The notes under the pieces are model-generated. The model worked only from the letters and a program-made list of their open reading frames with translations. It made no database searches and was not told the DNA's origin. Shown piece after piece: positions 11,342-59,484 of a stretch of DNA of 64,000 nt. Position 1 is the first letter of the stretch; each line of letters begins with the position of its first letter. The translations under genes were made by a program, and so were the position numbers. Source of the stretch: Blastococcus sp. CT_GayMR19 (GTDB taxonomy: Bacteria; Actinomycetota; Actinomycetes; Mycobacteriales; Geodermatophilaceae); contig NZ_SPQL01000011.1 of assembly GCF_004570385.1 (NCBI RefSeq), positions 1 to 64,000 of the forward strand, read 5' to 3'.

Positions 11342-11673
11342 TCCGCTCCTCGCTCGGCGTCACCGTCGCCTCCGCGGTCGCTCCGCTCCTCGCTCGCCGG
11401 CGCTCGCTGCGATGCTCACTCCCTGTCGGCTCCGTTCCTCGCTGCGATGTTCCCGCGGCTGTCGTGGGACGACTCGGAGGGGTGGCGGACACTACAAGCC
11501 AGAGTAGTGGGACGGCTGAGCCCCCCTGGCCCGGCTCCGCGCTCCGATCCGCTCCTCGCTCGGCGTCACCGTCGCCTCCGCGGCCTATCCGCTCCTCGCT
11601 CCTCGTCACCGTCGCCTCCGCGGTCGATCCGCTCCTCGCTCGCCGGCGCTCGCTGCGATGCTCACTCCCTGTC
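11342..11673. repeat. 86-bp direct repeats in the pcnA to Nudix spacer
   Basis: Two 86-nt near-identical copies (11342-11427 and 11588-11673), plus a 36-nt partial copy at 11548-11583. Each is built from an internal unit of about 40 nt containing CGCTCCTCGCTCG and CACCGTCGCCTCCGCGG. They fill most of the 394-nt divergent spacer between pcnA and the Nudix gene. Both strands stay open as ORFs through it, but the composition is a low-complexity repeat, not protein-like. Confidence 0.8.
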
Positions 11674-20163: not shown

Positions 20164-21375
20164 ATGGGAACCGACAGCGGTATGCAGATCCTGAGGCTCG
20201 GGGACCGTGGTCCGGCCGTCGCCGACGTGCGCGCCGCGCTGCGGAGCCTCGGTCTCCTCGGCGGCGAGGCCCGATCCGCGACGGCGACGGCCCCTGGCGG
20301 GCCGCTGGACACCATTCCGCTCCGCCACACCCCGCTCGACACGGCCCCCCTCGAGACCGCGGAGTTCGACGCCGCGACCGAACTCGCGGTCCGCCACTTC
20401 CAGCAGGTCCGCGGCCTCTCCGTGGACGGGCGGGTCGGCGAGGAGACCTACCGTGCGCTGAACGAGGCCAGGTGGTCCCTCGGCGACCGGCTGCTGCGCT
20501 ACGACCCCGAGCGGCCCATGCGCGGCGACGACGTCATCAGCCTGCAGGAGCGCCTCCTGGAGCTCGGCTACGACGCCGGCCGCGCCGACGGCATCCTGGG
20601 TCCCGAGACCGAGACGGGTCTCCGGGCCTTCCAGCGGGACTACGGACTCAACTCCGACGGAACGTGCGGGCCCGCCACCCTGCGGGCGCTGCGGCAACTG
20701 GGCCGCAAGGTGACCGGCGGCCGGCCCCAGCTGCTGCGGCAGAGCGCCTCGTTCGTCGACAGCGGCCCGCACCTGATCGGGCGCCGGATCGTCGTGGACG
20801 CCGGCCACGGCGGCGAGGAGACGGGCTTCACGGTCGGCGAGACCACCGAGGCCGACCTGGTCTTCGATCTCGCCTCCCGCATCGAGGGCCGGCTCGCCGC
20901 CGCGGGCGCCACCGTCTACCTCACCCGGGGCCGGAACCAGGGCCCCTCGCTGGCCGAGCGGACGGCGTTCGCCAACGACGCCCGCGGCGACCTGTTCCTC
21001 TCGCTGCACCTGGACTCGCACAGGTCCGAGCACGCCCGCGGGGTCGCCGCCTATTACTACGGCACCGGCTCGGGAGCCTCCTCCACGTTCGGCGAGCAGT
21101 TCGCCAACCTGGTCCGCCGGGAGGTGGTCGCCCGCACCGGCATGCTCGACCTGGGCTCGCACCCCAAGACCTGGGACCTGCTCCGGATGACGCGGATGCC
21201 CGCCGTCCGGCTGGACTGCGGCTACCTCTCGCACCCGGTCGACCGGCTGCTGCTGCTCGACGCCCGGGTGCGCAGCGCCGTCGCACAGGCCGTCCTGGCC
21301 GCCGTCCAGCGGCTCTACCTGCCCGCCGACGCCGACCCACCCACCGGCACGTTCGTGCTGGGGGAGCTGCGATGA
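20164..21375 (+). CDS. cwlM: CwlM, N-acetylmuramoyl-L-alanine amidase-like regulator
   Basis: 403-aa protein without a signal peptide, as in mycobacterial CwlM (406 aa). That protein is cytoplasmic and, when phosphorylated by PknB, stimulates MurA. Two peptidoglycan-binding-1 repeats (about residues 7-90 and 110-175) precede an Amidase_3 domain (about 195-390). Zinc-ligand positions are visible as DAGHGG, TEADLVFDLA and SLHLDSH. The catalytic Glu position in the last motif reads RLDCGYLSHP, with Asp in place of the usual Glu of active amidases. ATG 20164 is preceded directly by a GTG that could also serve; ATG 20182 is a further alternative. It is followed by a repeat array. Confidence 0.9.
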   Translation: MGTDSGMQILRLGDRGPAVADVRAALRSLGLLGGEARSATATAPGGPLDTIPLRHTPLDTAPLETAEFDAATELAVRHFQQVRGLSVDGRVGEETYRALNEARWSLGDRLLRYDPERPMRGDDVISLQERLLELGYDAGRADGILGPETETGLRAFQRDYGLNSDGTCGPATLRALRQLGRKVTGGRPQLLRQSASFVDSGPHLIGRRIVVDAGHGGEETGFTVGETTEADLVFDLASRIEGRLAAAGATVYLTRGRNQGPSLAERTAFANDARGDLFLSLHLDSHRSEHARGVAAYYYGTGSGASSTFGEQFANLVRREVVARTGMLDLGSHPKTWDLLRMTRMPAVRLDCGYLSHPVDRLLLLDARVRSAVAQAVLAAVQRLYLPADADPPTGTFVLGELR

Positions 21376-21380
21376 CGATG

Positions 21381-21436
21381 ACATGGCGATCCTCCGGATC
21401 GCACGGCGGCTATGACTCTGTCGTCCTCCGGACGAC
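21381..21436. repeat. Head motifs of the dispersed palindromic repeat family
   Basis: Two small palindromes right after the cwlM stop. One is ACATGGCGAT-CCTCCGG-ATCGCA (21381-21403); the other is GTCGTCC-TCC-GGACGAC (21420-21436). Related heads occur at 32755, 40555 (reverse orientation) and 49515. Confidence 0.75.
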
Positions 21437-21440
21437 ACCG

Positions 21441-21857
21441 CGGCCAATGGCCGTCCCCCGATGCCGTTGAGCCGCTGCGTCACGCCTACGCGGACCCCTC
21501 CGGGTCCCACTCGGCACGACAACCTGGGGTACGTCGGCTCGCCAGAGATGCCGCGGCCAACGGCCGTCCCCCGATGCCGTTGAGCCGCTGCGTCACGCCT
21601 ACGCGGACCCCTCCGGGTCCCACTCGGCACGACAACCTGAGGTACGTCGGCTCGCCAGAGATGCCGCGGCCAATGGCCGTTCCCCGATGCCGTTGAGCCG
21701 CTGCGTCACGCCTGCGCGGACCCCTCCGGGTCCCACTCGGCACGACAACCTGGGGTACGTCGGCTCGCCAGAGATGCCGCGGCCAACGGCCGTTCCCCGA
21801 TGCCGTTGAGCCGCTGCGTCACGCCTGCGCGGACCCCTCCGGGGCCCACTCGGCACG
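21441..21857. repeat. Tandem array of 113-bp repeats, 3.7 copies
   Basis: The period is exactly 113 bp: the landmark CGGCCAA recurs at 21441, 21554, 21667 and 21780. Each unit holds a mini-palindrome around CGGCCAATGGCCG (or the variant CGGCCAACGGCCG, which keeps pairing) and a hairpin GGACCC-CTCC-GGGTCC. The last copy stops after CTCGGCACGA. Copies differ by only a few substitutions. The 547-nt gap between cwlM and the aminotransferase contains this array, the head motifs, a short unique segment and a promoter, and no gene. Confidence 0.9.
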
Positions 21858-21909
21858 AACCGGTCCGTCCGTTCACTGTGTCCCGCCCTGCCCCCACCGC
21901 TTCACTCCC

Positions 21910-21922: not shown

Positions 21923-23353
21923 GTGGCCATCACCCCGCCCGGCCCGCCCGCCGGTCCCGGTTCCCCGGGGACGCACCTGACGCACGGTGCACATCCCCAC
22001 GTCGTGCCGCGCCACCCGCGGCTGGACCCGCTGGCGGACCGGTACGCAGCACGGACCCACGGGATGAAGACCTCCGAGATCCGCGCCCTGTTCTCCGTGG
22101 TGAGCCGGCCCGAGGTGGTGTCCCTGGCCGGTGGGATGCCGGCCGTCACCGCGCTCCCGCTCGACGCCGTGGGCTCGATGATCGGCGAGCTGGTCTCCGG
22201 GATGGGCGCCCAGACCCTGCAGTACGGCTCGGGTCAGGGCGATCCCCGGCTCCGCGAGCGGATCTGCGACGTCATGGCTCTGGAGGGCATCACGGACGCC
22301 TCGCCCAGCGAGGTCGTGGTCACGGTCGGCTCGCAGCAGGGCCTGGACCTGGTCACCCGCGTGTTCTGCGACCCGGGCGACGTGATCCTCGCCGAAGGGC
22401 CCTCCTACGTCGGCGCGCTGGGCGTCTTCCAGGCGGCCGAGGCCCGCGTGCGGCACGTCGCCATGGACGAGCACGGGCTGATCCCGGAGGCCCTGGAGGA
22501 GGCCCTGCTCGACTGCCGCACCAACGGCGACCGGGTCAAGTTCCTCTACACCGTGCCGAACTTCCACAACCCGGCCGGCGTGACGCTCTCCGAGCCCCGC
22601 CGCGAGGCGATCGTGGCCCTCGCCGAGAAGTACGACCTGCTGATCATCGAGGACAACCCCTACGGCCTGCTCGGGTTCGAGCACGAGCCGCTGCGCGCGC
22701 TGCGGGCCCGGAACAATCAGCGGGTGATCTACCTCGGCTCGTTCTCGAAGACGTTCTCGCCGGGGCTCCGGGTCGGCTGGGTGCTGGCTCCTCTCGCCGT
22801 CCGGGAGAAGCTGGTGCTCGCCACCGAGGCGCAGGTGCTCTGCCCGCCGTCGCTCACCCAGTACGCCGTCGCCCGGTACCTCGACACCCAGCCCTGGCGC
22901 GAGCAGATCAAGACCTTCACCGAGCTGTACCGCGAACGCCGCGACGCCTGCCTGGAGTCCCTGGCCGCGCTCATGCCCGCCGGCACCGCGTGGACCCGGC
23001 CGGAGGGCGGCTTCTACGTGTGGCTGAAGCTGCCGCACGGCCTGGACGCGAAGCTGATGCAGCCCCGCGCGGTGAACGCCCACGTCGCCTACGTGCCCGG
23101 CATCGGGTTCTTCGCCGACGGCAACGGCCGCGAGTACATGCGGCTGTCGTACTGCTACCCCGAACCCGACCGGATCCGTGAAGGCGTGCGCCGGCTGGCC
23201 CGGGTCATCGAGGCCGAGCTGGACCTGCACTCCACGTTCGACGCCGTCGACACGGGCACGTTCCGCCAGGTCAGCGGCGCCGTTCCCGGGCACGAGGCCG
23301 AGACGATCGTCGGGCCCGCCAACCGTGACACCGGCAAGGACGACCGCCCATGA
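21923..23353 (+). CDS. PLP-dependent aminotransferase, class I/II (MocR/LysN-like fold)
   Basis: 476-aa cytoplasmic fold-type I PLP enzyme. Landmarks in order are SLAGGMPAVTALPLDAV, YGSGQGDPRLRERI, PNFHNPAGVTLS, EDNPYGLLGFE, the Schiff-base lysine in GSFSKTFSPGLRVGWV, and a C-terminal FYVWLKLP. This resembles 2-aminoadipate or valine-pyruvate type aminotransferases, but the substrate cannot be assigned. A 60-residue N-terminal tail and a 35-residue C-terminal tail extend the usual length. The GTG start is supported by a leaderless promoter. The stop overlaps the Ddl-like gene by 4 nt (ATGA), suggesting an amino-acid or D-alanine-related partnership. Confidence 0.9.
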   Translation: MAITPPGPPAGPGSPGTHLTHGAHPHVVPRHPRLDPLADRYAARTHGMKTSEIRALFSVVSRPEVVSLAGGMPAVTALPLDAVGSMIGELVSGMGAQTLQYGSGQGDPRLRERICDVMALEGITDASPSEVVVTVGSQQGLDLVTRVFCDPGDVILAEGPSYVGALGVFQAAEARVRHVAMDEHGLIPEALEEALLDCRTNGDRVKFLYTVPNFHNPAGVTLSEPRREAIVALAEKYDLLIIEDNPYGLLGFEHEPLRALRARNNQRVIYLGSFSKTFSPGLRVGWVLAPLAVREKLVLATEAQVLCPPSLTQYAVARYLDTQPWREQIKTFTELYRERRDACLESLAALMPAGTAWTRPEGGFYVWLKLPHGLDAKLMQPRAVNAHVAYVPGIGFFADGNGREYMRLSYCYPEPDRIREGVRRLARVIEAELDLHSTFDAVDTGTFRQVSGAVPGHEAETIVGPANRDTGKDDRP

Positions 23354-30908: not shown

Positions 30909-32750
30909 ATGGCGGACGCCACGCTGGACCTGGCAACGGTCTGGGACCAGATCCGCGAACGGCTGGCGACGAGTCTGTCCCCGCAGCAGAACGCGATGCT
31001 GAACCTGACCCGTCCCCTCGGGCTGGTCGAGGACACGGCGGTGCTGGCCGCGCCCAACGAGTTCACCCAGACCGTGCTCGAGTCCCGGATGCGCCGAGTG
31101 CTCGCCGAGGCACTGTCCGAGCAGTTCGGCCGGGACATCCGGGTCGCCGTGCAGCTCGAGGACGCACCGGCCGGGCCGCCGGCCGACACCCGCGACGAGG
31201 AGCCCACCCGCCGTCCCTGGTCCGACGCCGAGGCGCAGCGTGCCGAGGAGGACCGCGCCACCCGCGACCGCGCCGACGACGGGCGGAGCGCGTTCGGCGT
31301 CCGGACCGACGCGGTCGGGACGCCGCCGTGGGACCGGGGCTCCGGAGACGCGCTGTCCGGCCGCTCCGACGCCGAGGCCCGGGAACTGCGGTCGGTGGAC
31401 GGCCCGACGCCGCGGCCGGTGGACCGCGGAGCCCCCGAGGACTGGAGCACGCAGACCTGGGGGACCGGGTCCGCGGAGCCGGCCGGCGGCACGCAACCGC
31501 CCGGCGGCACGCACGCTGCCGGCGGTCTGGGCGGGCGCGACTGGGGCGGCTCGGAGGACGACTCGTCGGCCGACGTGCTGCCCTTCGACCTCGACGTCCC
31601 CGCCGACCAGCGCGCCGGTCGGCCCGGGAACGGCCGCGGCCGACGTCCCGACAGCCGGGGCGGCTACGGGCGGGACGCCGGGGGAGGGTTCGCCGACCGC
31701 CGTCCGGCCGGCCTGGACCCGGGTCTGAACCCCAAGTACGTCTTCGACTCCTTCGTCATCGGCAACAGCAACCGGTTCGCCCATGCCGCGGCGGTCGCCG
31801 TCGCCGAGGCGCCGGCCCGCGCGTACAACCCGCTGTTCATCTACGGCGAATCCGGGCTGGGGAAGACCCACCTGCTGCACGCGATCGGGCACTACGCGGC
31901 CCGGATGTTCCCCAACGTGCGCGTCCGGTACGTGAGCACCGAGGAGTTCACCAACGAGTTCATCAACCTCGTGCACTCCGGCCGGGCCGAGGAGTTCCGC
32001 CGGCGCTTCCGGGACATCGACTTCCTGCTGATCGACGACATCCAGTTCCTGGAGCGGGCGGAGCGCACGCAGGAGGAGTTCTTCCACACCTTCAACACGC
32101 TGCACAACGCCAGCAAGCAGATCGTCATCACCTCCGACCGCGCGCCGAAGAAGCTGACGACGCTGGAGGACCGGCTGCGCACCCGCTTCGAGTGGGGCCT
32201 GATCACCGACGTCCAGGCGCCCGACCTGGAGACCCGCATCGCGATCCTGCGGAAGAAGGCCTGGGGCGAGCGGCTGCAGGTGCCCGACGCCGTGCTGGAG
32301 TTCATCGCCAGCAAGGTGCAGACCAACATCCGCGAGCTCGAGGGCGCGCTCATCCGCGTGACCGCGTTCGCCAGTCTCAACAAGCAGCAGGTGGACCTCC
32401 CGCTGGCCGAGCTCGTGCTGAAGGACCTGATCAGCGACGAGCAGGGCCCGCAGATCACCGCGGCGATCATCATGGCCGCGACCGCGGAGTACTTCTCCGT
32501 GACGATGGAGGAGCTGCAGGGCGCCAACCGCAGCCGCACGCTGGTCAACGCCCGCCAGATCGCCATGTACCTGTGCCGTGAGCTCACCGAGCTGTCCCTG
32601 CCGCGGATCGGGGCCTCGTTCGGGGGCAAGGACCACACGACGGTCATGCACGCGGTCAAGAAGATCACCAACCTGATGAGCGAGCGCCGCGCGACCTACA
32701 CACAGGTCACCGAGCTCACCGCCCGGATCAAGAGCCGGGCCCGCCAGTGA
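30909..32750 (+). CDS. dnaA: Chromosomal replication initiator protein DnaA
   Basis: 613-aa AAA+ initiator. Domain I is about residues 5-85 ([20 protein letters not shown]). An unusually long disordered domain II (about 85-270) is rich in Arg, Asp and Gly. Domain III has Walker [16 protein letters not shown] near residue 314 and Walker [11 protein letters not shown], with sensor [10 protein letters not shown]. Domain IV ends with the DNA-binding signature [15 protein letters not shown]. Long domain II is typical of actinobacteria. ATG 30909 lies 8 nt after GGGAGGA. It binds the oriC downstream. Confidence 0.98.
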
Positions 32751-32754
32751 CACC

Positions 32755-32854
32755 GTCGTCCTCCGGACGACACCGCTTCCAATTGCCGTCCCCCAGCACG
32801 CGGAGCCGTTGAGTCGTGCCTGCGCGGGAGCCTCCGGCCCCCACCCGGCCCGAC
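32755..32854. repeat. Dispersed palindromic repeat, copy after dnaA
   Basis: The head GTCGTCC-TCC-GGACGAC (32755-32771) is followed by ACACCGC, GCCGTCCCCC, GAGCCGTTGAGTCGTGCC, TGCGCGGGAGCCTCCGG and CACCCGGCCCGAC. These correspond in order to segments of the 113-bp unit at 21.4-21.9 kb, with more divergence. It begins 4 nt after the dnaA stop. Confidence 0.75.
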
Positions 32855-33410
32855 GGGTGCCGTCCCCCTGCTACGAGGAGCATGTTCGTGGGCCGGTCAC
32901 TATCCACAGCCGCGGATCCCGCCGGACACCTCGGGGACACCCGTTCGTCACCGCCCTTCCCGGCCGGTCGGCGGCCCGACGCGGTCGACTCGTCGAGAAG
33001 TTGTCCCCAGGAATGTGCACAGGCTGGGGAGATCTCTGCCGGAGCCGTGTGACGGCTCGGCCGGTCGACGGAGCCGGTATCCGGGGCGGCTGTCAACGGG
33101 GCCTGGCCGTTTCCCGGAATCGGGCGTTGACCTGCGCGGACGCCCTCGGACGCCTGCGGACGCCGCGGACGTGCACCTTCGGCCGACACGCCTCGGGACG
33201 CCCCTGTTGCCGGTCCCTCGCCGGTCTGGGGACGGAGCGGGGAGAGGCAGGGGAGAGCAGGTGGACGGCGGACGGTCACGGTGCACAACCGTCGAGATGT
33301 CCACGTGTCGACACAGGAAGGACGGTCACCACCCACAGCCGGCCAACAGGCGCATTCGGCCACTGAGCAGCGGGAACGGCCTCGATCCCCAGCTTCCACA
33401 CGTGTGATGA

Positions 33411-48822: not shown

Positions 48823-49512
48823 ATGAGCGACCGGACGAAGAGTTCGGTGCGCACCGATTCCCGGGGCGGCGACGACGACGCGCCGGGAGGCAGCACCCCG
48901 GGCGAGGCCACGCCGGTCACGTCCACGCAGTCCATCCCGGGTGCCGGCACCGCCCGCGCACAGGGCTCGGGTGGCCCCGCCTCGGGTGCCCAGCCGGCCG
49001 TCTCCTCGAATCCGGTCCCGCCGATCCCGGCGACCGGCAAGGGGCCGGTCGCGCCGGCCACGGGTGCCGCCTCCGCGCCGGGTGCGCCCGACGCCACCGG
49101 CTCTGTCGCCTCGCGGATCCGCGGCCGCGCCGGCAAGGGTGGTCGTGGCCCGCGCCGCGCCCGCCTGCAGCTCCGGCACGTCGACATCTGGTCGGCGTTC
49201 AAGATCTCGTTCGTGCTGTCGATCGCCATGTTCTTCATCTGGATGGTGGCGGTCGGCGTGCTCTACGGGGTGCTCAGCGCCCTCGGGGTGTTCGACACGC
49301 TCAACGACCTGTTCGGCCAGTTGAGCACGGCGTCGGGCAGCGAGCTCGGCGGCGACGTGGTCACCCCTGGGCTGGTCTTCGGCGGAGCGGCCGTCATCGG
49401 GGCGATCAACATCGTGCTCATGACGGCGCTGTGCACCGTCGGGACGTTCATCTACAACCTCTGCTCCGACCTCGTCGGCGGCCTCGAGCTCACGCTGTCC
49501 GAGCGCGACTGA
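48823..49512 (+). CDS. DUF3566 membrane protein
   Basis: 229-aa protein found directly after gyrA in actinobacteria (Rv0007 position). A 110-residue Ser/Pro/Gly/Ala-rich disordered tail leads to the DUF3566 domain with RLQLRHVDIWSAFKISFVLS, and two membrane helices (IAMFFIWMVAVGVLYGVLSA and VIGAINIVLMTALCTVGTFIY). Function is unknown; the conserved place suggests a link to septal or membrane processes. ATG 48823 follows GGGAG. The dispersed repeat starts 3 nt after its stop. Confidence 0.9.
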   Translation: MSDRTKSSVRTDSRGGDDDAPGGSTPGEATPVTSTQSIPGAGTARAQGSGGPASGAQPAVSSNPVPPIPATGKGPVAPATGAASAPGAPDATGSVASRIRGRAGKGGRGPRRARLQLRHVDIWSAFKISFVLSIAMFFIWMVAVGVLYGVLSALGVFDTLNDLFGQLSTASGSELGGDVVTPGLVFGGAAVIGAINIVLMTALCTVGTFIYNLCSDLVGGLELTLSERD

Positions 49513-49514
49513 GC

Positions 49515-49620
49515 ACATGGCGACCCTCCGGGTCGCACCGCGGCCACGGGCCGTCCCCGGCCGGCACGAGCCGCTGCGTCGTGCCTGCGCGGACCCCTCC
49601 GGGGCCCACTCGGCCCGACA
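49515..49620. repeat. Dispersed palindromic repeat, copy after the DUF3566 gene
   Basis: The head ACATGGCGACC-CTCC-GGGTCGCA (49515-49537) is followed by CCGCGGCCA, GGCCGTCCCCGG, GAGCCGCTGCGTCGTGCC, TGCGCGGACCCCTCC and GGGGCCCACTCGG. This is colinear with one 113-bp unit. The CATTGC palindrome at 49678-49730 follows. The 335-nt gap to the tRNA gene holds these repeats and the tRNA promoter. Confidence 0.8.
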
Positions 49621-49828
49621 GGTTCGTCCCCGGCCGGGCCACGCGGCGTCCAGAGGGGATTGGGGGTGTTGTGGGGGCATTGCTCGTGCTGCAGCACCGG
49701 CCATGGTCGGACGACGGGCGCAATGCGAGGGCGCCTGCGGCCGATGTCGCGCACCGGTCCCCTCACCCGCTGGAGCGGCGGCAGCGCCCCGCTTTCCACC
49801 CCTCGGCCAGGTGGTCGACGCCCCCAGG

Positions 49829-59257: not shown

Positions 59258-59484
59258 CGGGGGTCCTCTCGGGCGGTGCGGGGCGTCGTCATGGCGCAGG
59301 CCTCGGCGCCCGGGTGAATGGCGGAGGCCTCGGCGCCCGGGTGAATGGCGGAGGCCTCGGCGCCCGGGCATGCAGCGCTGACCACGGCCGGCAGGCACGC
59401 ACGTTGCCGTGGGTGCACGGAGCCGCCCCGCAGCGTAACCGCTGGGCGGCCGGATACCCGGGCGGCACGGAGGAGTGCGCTCAC
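59254..59484 (-). CDS. Small ORF coupled between pknA and pknB, repeat-containing
   Basis: 76 codons. GTG 59484 overlaps the pknA stop by 4 nt (GTGA) and its stop overlaps the pknB ATG by 4 nt (ATGA), the usual coupling used by operon genes here. The peptide has a three-fold PGAEA repeat (PGAEASAIHPGAEASAIH) encoded by the 27-bp tandem repeat, plus two Cys near residues 30 and 39. Third-position GC is high but lower than in its neighbours. No known family. It may be a real small protein or only a ribosome bridge across a spacer. Confidence 0.35.
   Translation of the reverse strand: MSALLRAARVSGRPAVTLRGGSVHPRQRACLPAVVSAACPGAEASAIHPGAEASAIHPGAEACAMTTPRTAREDPR
59300..59368. repeat. 27-bp tandem repeat in the pknA-pknB spacer
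   Basis: GCCTCGGCGCCCGGG recurs at 59300, 59327 and 59354 with TGAATGGCGGAG between copies, an exact period of 27 bp (a multiple of 3). Confidence 0.88.

Follow-up and report, generated by a model that had tools for sequence, protein, structure and literature searches.

A dispersed structured repeat at gene ends of Blastococcus, multiplied in tandem after cwlM

The locus downstream of cwlM

In the 64,000-nucleotide stretch of Blastococcus DNA analysed here (the window), the space between a cwlM-like gene and the aminotransferase gene that follows it in the same direction is occupied by two small hairpin modules and a tandem array. A first-pass annotation had described this array by the landmark CGGCCAA, recurring every 113 bp exactly in nearly identical copies, and both observations hold: the landmark lies at 21441, 21554, 21667 and 21780, i.e., with a spacing of exactly 113 bp, and Tandem Repeats Finder likewise delimits an array at 21438-21858 with a period of 113, 3.7 copies, 97% matches and a score of 786, far above that of every other tandem array in the window. 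Other tandem repeats are found at 59291-59368 (27-bp unit, 2.9 copies, 98% alike) and 11535-11642 (40-bp unit, 2.7 copies). The locus comprises the following features:

20182-21375, + strand: cwlM-like N-acetylmuramoyl-L-alanine amidase with Amidase_3 and PG_binding_1 domains (gene call; Pfam PF01520, PF01471)
21373-21375, + strand: TGA stop codon of cwlM, the gene upstream of the array
21378-21403, + strand: first 5' hairpin module, TGACATG-GCGATCC-TCC-GGATCGC-A (pattern match 21381-21403)
21412-21437, + strand: second 5' hairpin module, ATGACTCT-GTCGTCC-TCC-GGACGAC-A, corresponding to helix 1 of covariance model R1 (model match 21412-21522, 118 bits)
21438-21520, + strand: element body of unit 1, starting with CCGCGGCCAATGGCCG and including the conserved GAGCCGCTGCGTC (alignment, covariance model and unit comparison)
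21521-21550, + strand: array linker, ending in CTGGGGTACGTCGGCTCGCCAGAGATG, confined to the array within the genome
21551-21633, + strand: element body of unit 2, tandem copy (R1 match 21528-21635, 75 bits)
21664-21746, + strand: element body of unit 3, tandem copy (R1 match 21641-21748, 78 bits)
21777-21858, + strand: element body of unit 4 (R1 match 21754-21861, 70 bits)
22004-23353, + strand: class I/II aminotransferase, next gene in the same direction (gene call; Pfam PF00155)

The array is composed of 83-bp bodies, four in number, alternating with 30-bp linkers; searched genome-wide with up to three mismatches, the last 23 bases of the linker are found only at 21528, 21641 and 21754. The 57 bp at 21381-21437, with which the stretch originally annotated began, lie outside the 113-bp unit and correspond to two copies of another hairpin module, namely GCGATCC-TCC-GGATCGC and GTCGTCC-TCC-GGACGAC, the former being of a type that recurs one to four times in other copies of the family. 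In unit 1, an outer stem formed by CGTCACGCC and GGCACGAC (helix 2) encloses the hairpin GGACCC-CTCC-GGGTCC (helix 3). This hairpin had been credited to every unit; it is present in three of the four, the last one reading GGACCC-CTCC-GGGGCC. Directly 3' of unit 4, ACCGGTCCGTCC resembles the flank present in relatives that lack the element, as read from the comparison of gaps.

Full-length units vary at unit positions 11, 18, 51 and 90 alone, and the last unit also at position 68; no two of these positions pair with each other. The substitution of CGGCCAATGGCCG by CGGCCAACGGCCG, from which a change preserving base-pairing had been deduced, is a single T/C change (AAT to AAC) in the loop between CGGCC and GGCCG, where no pair is compensated, and is thus invalid as evidence for structure. 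Likewise, aligning the four units for covariation, as the first-pass annotation had itself proposed, yields no compensated pair inside the array.

A repeat family dispersed in Geodermatophilaceae

At the DNA level, 50 stretches of the same genome (Blastococcus, 4.57 Mb, 42 contigs) match the repeat. A covariance model (R1, 22 pairs), built after alignment of 42 copies, gives 93 matches in 76 separate places, so that the family is dispersed, and the pattern of the hairpin module has 96 matches in this genome vs. two for a reversed control. With the same model, all 15 genus-mates are positive (10-78 copies per genome), as are seven out of nine genomes from other genera of the family Geodermatophilaceae (3-54 copies each), and no copy is detected in the 16 genomes searched from the rest of the order. 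Tandem copies also occur at other loci, with periods of about 84-94 bp. As such, the array after cwlM is a locally tandem-multiplied copy of a dispersed structured repeat. Two further copies lie in the window:

32747-32856, + strand: second family copy, at the 3' end of dnaA, between dnaA and dnaN (R1, 107 bits; dnaA and dnaN by Pfam)
49512-49621, + strand: third family copy, directly 3' of a DUF3566 gene (R1, 99 bits; Pfam)

In the second copy, GTGACA provides the stop codon of dnaA. This copy borders the dnaA-dnaN gap, likely oriC, which in relatives contains copies, composites, a second repeat or nothing. This second structured repeat, AAGGACCCCGTCC....GGACGGGGYCC, is terminator-like and occupies the same gene ends in other members of the genus Blastococcus, at least five species having it 3' of dnaA; it also makes up composites with the first family (L317:1348-1473; L328, about 1420-1500; L342, L344, L346, L347 and L350, just after dnaA).

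Respective to known sequences, Rfam matches only tRNAs in the window and has no relevant match on the copies at E up to 1, and an identity as CRISPR or Rfam RNA was dropped for lack of a match. Plasmid and phage collections do not match the family either, and spread via such replicons was set aside on that account. In the literature searched on repeats of Blastococcus and Geodermatophilaceae, nothing relevant was found; a genome-wide paper mentions questionable CRISPRs only (PMC9686282).

Secondary structure and covariation

The element measures about 110 bp and is built from one to four 5' hairpin modules and a body where an outer stem surrounds a second hairpin. Read on the window + strand, the consensus is composed, in this order, of ATGACAYNG, helix 1 (7 bp with loop TCC, in one to four copies), CACCGCGGCCA, a region of variable sequence around CCGTCCCC, GAGCCGYTKC, and helix 2, i.e., an 8-bp outer stem of GTCRYGCC with GGCRYGAC, inside which come TGCGC, helix 3 (GG..CCC-TCC-GGG..CC) and ACTC. 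A CC-TCC-GG tip is common to helices 1 and 3.

Among the 42 aligned copies of the genome, both-sided changes are seen in 15 of the 22 pairs and in all three helices. Paired cells amount to 89%, vs. 80% after shuffling and 31-45% after sliding the partners by 1-3 columns, and none of 500 shuffles attains the observed covariation. Over 145 copies from ten genomes, the pairs of highest mutual information are mostly helix pairs. Pairing is not uniform, however: the middle pair of the outer stem (72-105) is unpaired in about one third of copies, and loss of pairing elsewhere, which the first-pass annotation had regarded as counting against its own proposal, does occur to some extent, with about 90% of cells paired for helix 2 and 79% for helix 3. 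Altogether, covariation across about 150 other copies of the family supports the view that its fold is probably under selection, the conclusion reached initially from the array, where nothing is compensated.

Mismatches are also uneven, with 217 cells of A.C on the window + strand (G.U on the other) vs. 24 of G.T; the bulk of this excess stems from one A.C of helix 3 found in nearly every copy and from pair 72-105, and outside those two sources the bias is mild (about 31 vs. 18). The folding strand may be the one opposite to the window + strand, for which the sequences provide a hint and not a proof.

Position relative to genes

Gene contexts were derived from a codon-usage gene caller trained in the course of the analysis. 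In the genome under study, the 76 places divide into 36 convergent, 19 and 11 codirectional and nine divergent; for 63 places in nine relatives, a biased sample of best-scoring copies, the corresponding figures are 41, 12 and 7, and none. In total, 77 of 135 places are convergent gaps, for a baseline of seven convergent gene pairs out of 50 in the window, and many copies occupy the entire space between two convergent stop codons. A gene in sense orientation lies upstream in 108 places (80%), and in 38 of these its end is overlapped by 2-6 bases. The overlap is identical (offset -4) in 28 of the 108, where the upstream gene terminates on the TGA within the ATGACA of the element.

Gain, loss, inversion and retention

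The gap between cwlM and the aminotransferase gene was examined in 54 relatives. About ten Blastococcus and, with a partial copy, one Geodermatophilus have the element in the same orientation; four species have it inverted, and the remaining relatives, many with a gap of only 20-40 bp, lack it. On a tree of 41 leaves, its presence and absence require 13 changes. Presence differs even within the sister pairs litoris/haudaquaticus and CCUG 61487/massiliensis, and the sister species RYN_128 and RYN_174 carry the element in opposite orientations. In the cwlM gap, L150, L155, L159, L163, L166 and L193 carry a variant subfamily characterised by GAGCCCCWCCCGGCCCTCGTCGCGGRGGCCTCCGG and by an additional 3' hairpin (CGCCTCGCAGGGCGGCTC).

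At one convergent gap (L117), five genomes, including the one under study, are filled; in four others, the two stop codons are 3-6 bp apart (e.g., TAG CGG TCA or TGA GCC TCA), two carry a composite including the second hairpin family, and two carry unrelated palindromes or inserts. Since the C-terminus of the upstream protein is unchanged, the element sits there exactly at the native stop. When filled and empty gaps are compared at several sites, no clean target-site duplication (2-10 bp) is readable, because the species compared are about 10% or more apart.

Many sites are nonetheless retained between species. From 65 copies sampled in relatives, 30 lie in the same gap and orientation as in the genome under study and seven in the same gap in opposite orientation, i.e., 37 of 65 vs. 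a rough expectation below 10% from the number of gaps. Identity reaches 0.82 at shared gaps, taking the best pair per site, vs. 0.74 for random pairs, and copies in shared gaps keep site-specific outer-stem sequences. Between copies of the same gap in different species, the better conserved pairs display 20 double Watson-Crick changes vs. 15 one-sided ones; some of these double changes affect three helix 1 pairs simultaneously and may stem from an exchange of modules instead of compensation step by step. In element-free species, the same 3' gaps hold unrelated sequences, either long palindromes or tandem repeats (L141 after 11215; the L284 and L321 gaps, G006; L180 after 11218), which suggests that these gaps gather hairpins in general.

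Nature and maintenance of the repeat

With a probability of roughly 0.7, the family is a non-autonomous structured repeat of the REP/ERIC/MIRU kind, targeting or tolerating stop codons and forming a family of its own with a selected fold, of which the cwlM array would be a copy multiplied in tandem. Copies would insert on a stop codon or immediately behind it, mostly in very short convergent gaps, so that the leading TGA of the element comes to serve as stop codon for the preceding gene, or coincides with it. Once inserted, a copy may be multiplied in tandem (here to four bodies), inverted, replaced or lost, many copies being probably long inherited, and mobility would be the cause of the pattern of occupancy. 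The fold would be preserved on one particular strand, presumably because the machinery moving the element recognises a folded single strand, and a copy may, secondarily and without harm, provide the flanking transcripts with a structured 3' end.

Such a transcript-end role is the main rival, or complement, to a mobile repeat. Taken by itself, it would make the repeat a host-owned element, i.e., a bidirectional terminator or transcript-stabilising structure copied to many gene ends and held there by selection, which is possible albeit clearly less probable. Besides the sense gene directly upstream in four-fifths of places, the copies filling a whole convergent space leave no room for another terminator; yet in many relatives the stops of the same convergent genes are 3-6 bp apart with no hairpin between them, and the sequence after cwlM in many Blastococcus is about 30 bp long and free of any hairpin, so that the element is dispensable in the same gaps. 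A required cwlM terminator was dropped on this ground. The structure-preserving double changes between copies of the same gap are also in line with the host-owned element, and compensated changes at resident copies could reflect a host function in place instead of selection for mobility; the occasional presence of unrelated palindromes or of the terminator-like second repeat in the gaps of element-free species also fits the host-owned element. On the contrary, a general 3'-end element is at odds with only about 76 places in a 4.57-Mb genome, with hairpins that are not followed by a T run, and with the seemingly best-folding strand, which in codirectional places would be antisense to the two neighbours 31 times and sense 18 times.

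It is improbable that the covariation is a by-product of replication, where template switching in hairpins would repair quasi-palindromes and thereby change both partners of a pair together, with no selection on the fold. Such a process could account for helix 1, which is nearly perfectly paired with double changes in 88 cells vs. one-sided changes in eight, as well as for direct G-C/C-G swaps with few G-U steps. However, the outer stem enclosing the second hairpin covaries as well, repair that is symmetric between strands would not be expected to bias mismatches to one strand (217 vs. 24), and conservation between species extends to hairpin loops and unpaired motifs.

Regarding the agent of movement, no known mobilising enzyme accounts for the spread of the family. 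A REP/RAYT system, where a Y1 tyrosine transposase moves single-stranded hairpins, would suit modules that are small, palindromic and headed by a conserved motif (TGACA) on the 5' side, as well as a 3' intergenic location and tandem or mosaic copies, but is very unlikely, as the transposase domain (PF01797) is absent from all 16 genomes of the genus and was detected in five control genomes. The reverse transcriptase domain PF00078 is absent from three copy-rich genomes, namely the one under study (G000, 93 copies), G002 (62) and G008 (61). The IS110 transposase domain PF02371 is present in G000 and absent from the carriers G002 (62 copies), G011, G013 (40) and G014. RAYT, reverse transcriptase and IS110 were rejected as movers, their distribution among carriers being inconsistent. 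At four loci, the genes separating neighbouring copies, with part of the flanks scanned by Pfam, encode MFS, ArgZ-like, hemerythrin and PALP proteins and one protein with no Pfam match; there was no transposase match, and no autonomous element was found among those scanned. An integron attC site, suggested by the match of GTTGAGC to GTTRRRY and by the apparent folding of one strand, was discarded since the alignment reveals neither conservation of this motif nor a complementary partner box for it. From these searches, the mover may have been lost or may be a housekeeping process. A bolder proposal, which appears unlikely, is an undescribed class of mobile element whose folded single strand (RNA or DNA) would be put precisely at stop codons between convergent genes by an enzyme other than Y1, reverse transcriptase or IS110, and then retained as a two-sided transcript boundary.

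Finally, a regulatory structure specific to cwlM and the aminotransferase or to the origin region, selected for tandem copy number, which the location of four near-identical units between these genes at about 9.5 kb from dnaA might have evoked and to which the first-pass annotation had attached meaning, can hardly be upheld for an element that is found in 76 places, is tandem at unrelated loci too, is absent, single or inverted after cwlM in relatives, with many Blastococcus lacking it there, and shows no compensated change in the array itself; nothing points to a cwlM-specific role.

Comparison with known repeat families

The best-known dispersed folded repeats are those of enterobacteria, Neisseria and streptococci. 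The present repeat constitutes an actinobacterial family that is well delimited and clearly covarying, with a marked preference for convergent stop codons and with gains, losses and flips that can be read between species. As such, it offers a test bed for (i) what moves such repeats in the absence of RAYT or a related insertion sequence, and (ii) whether a hairpin lying in a convergent gap sets a transcript boundary or is simply tolerated in that place. It also accounts for arrays of Geodermatophilaceae that annotation could mistake for regulatory or CRISPR-like ones.

ERIC sequences, the intergenic repeat units of enterobacteria, are about 110-127 bp long, present in tens to hundreds of copies at intergenic sites and sometimes gene 3' ends, and fold as RNA without an enzyme of their own (PMC10969869, PMC2267715), the predicted fold being one long stem-loop (PMC2267715). 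The Blastococcus repeat is similar in size, copy range, intergenic and 3'-end sites, RNA-type fold and lack of its own enzyme, but differs, as compared by description, in its separate hairpins, modular 5' repeats, stop-codon anchoring and host phylum.

MIRUs (mycobacterial interspersed repetitive units) are not known to have dyad symmetry. They share with the present repeat an actinobacterial host, tandem and dispersed copies, a mobile appearance and the overlap with a translation signal. They insert with a 4-nt overlap to this signal (PMC12548453), at the start codon, and couple the translation of codirectional genes. In contrast, the Blastococcus repeat uses stop codons, is convergent in 77 of 135 places and has a covarying fold.

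As in REP, the unit is short, palindromic, intergenic and in many copies, and, as in REP/BIME, it has palindromic modules, 3' intergenic sites and mosaics; it differs by a body with outer stem and internal loop and by a genus devoid of the Y1 transposase. BOX elements of Streptococcus pneumoniae are modular, with a variable number of one module. This build is similar in the present repeat, while the module order and the host are different, as compared by description. MITEs are likewise short, non-coding and intergenic, with several to many copies and variable occupancy; unlike them, the Blastococcus repeat has no terminal inverted repeats, its conserved ends (ATGACAYNG... and ...GGCRCGACA) not being inverted copies of each other. 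A parent insertion sequence did not come to light among the genes scanned between neighbouring copies.

The repeat behaves like ERIC or MIRU and resembles REP in its modules. Lacking the tested defining features of REP/RAYT, MITE and MIRU, and exhibiting those of the general kind, i.e., many intergenic copies with a common secondary structure and no protein of their own, it can be classified as a new family among the small dispersed structured repeats, a kind already known.
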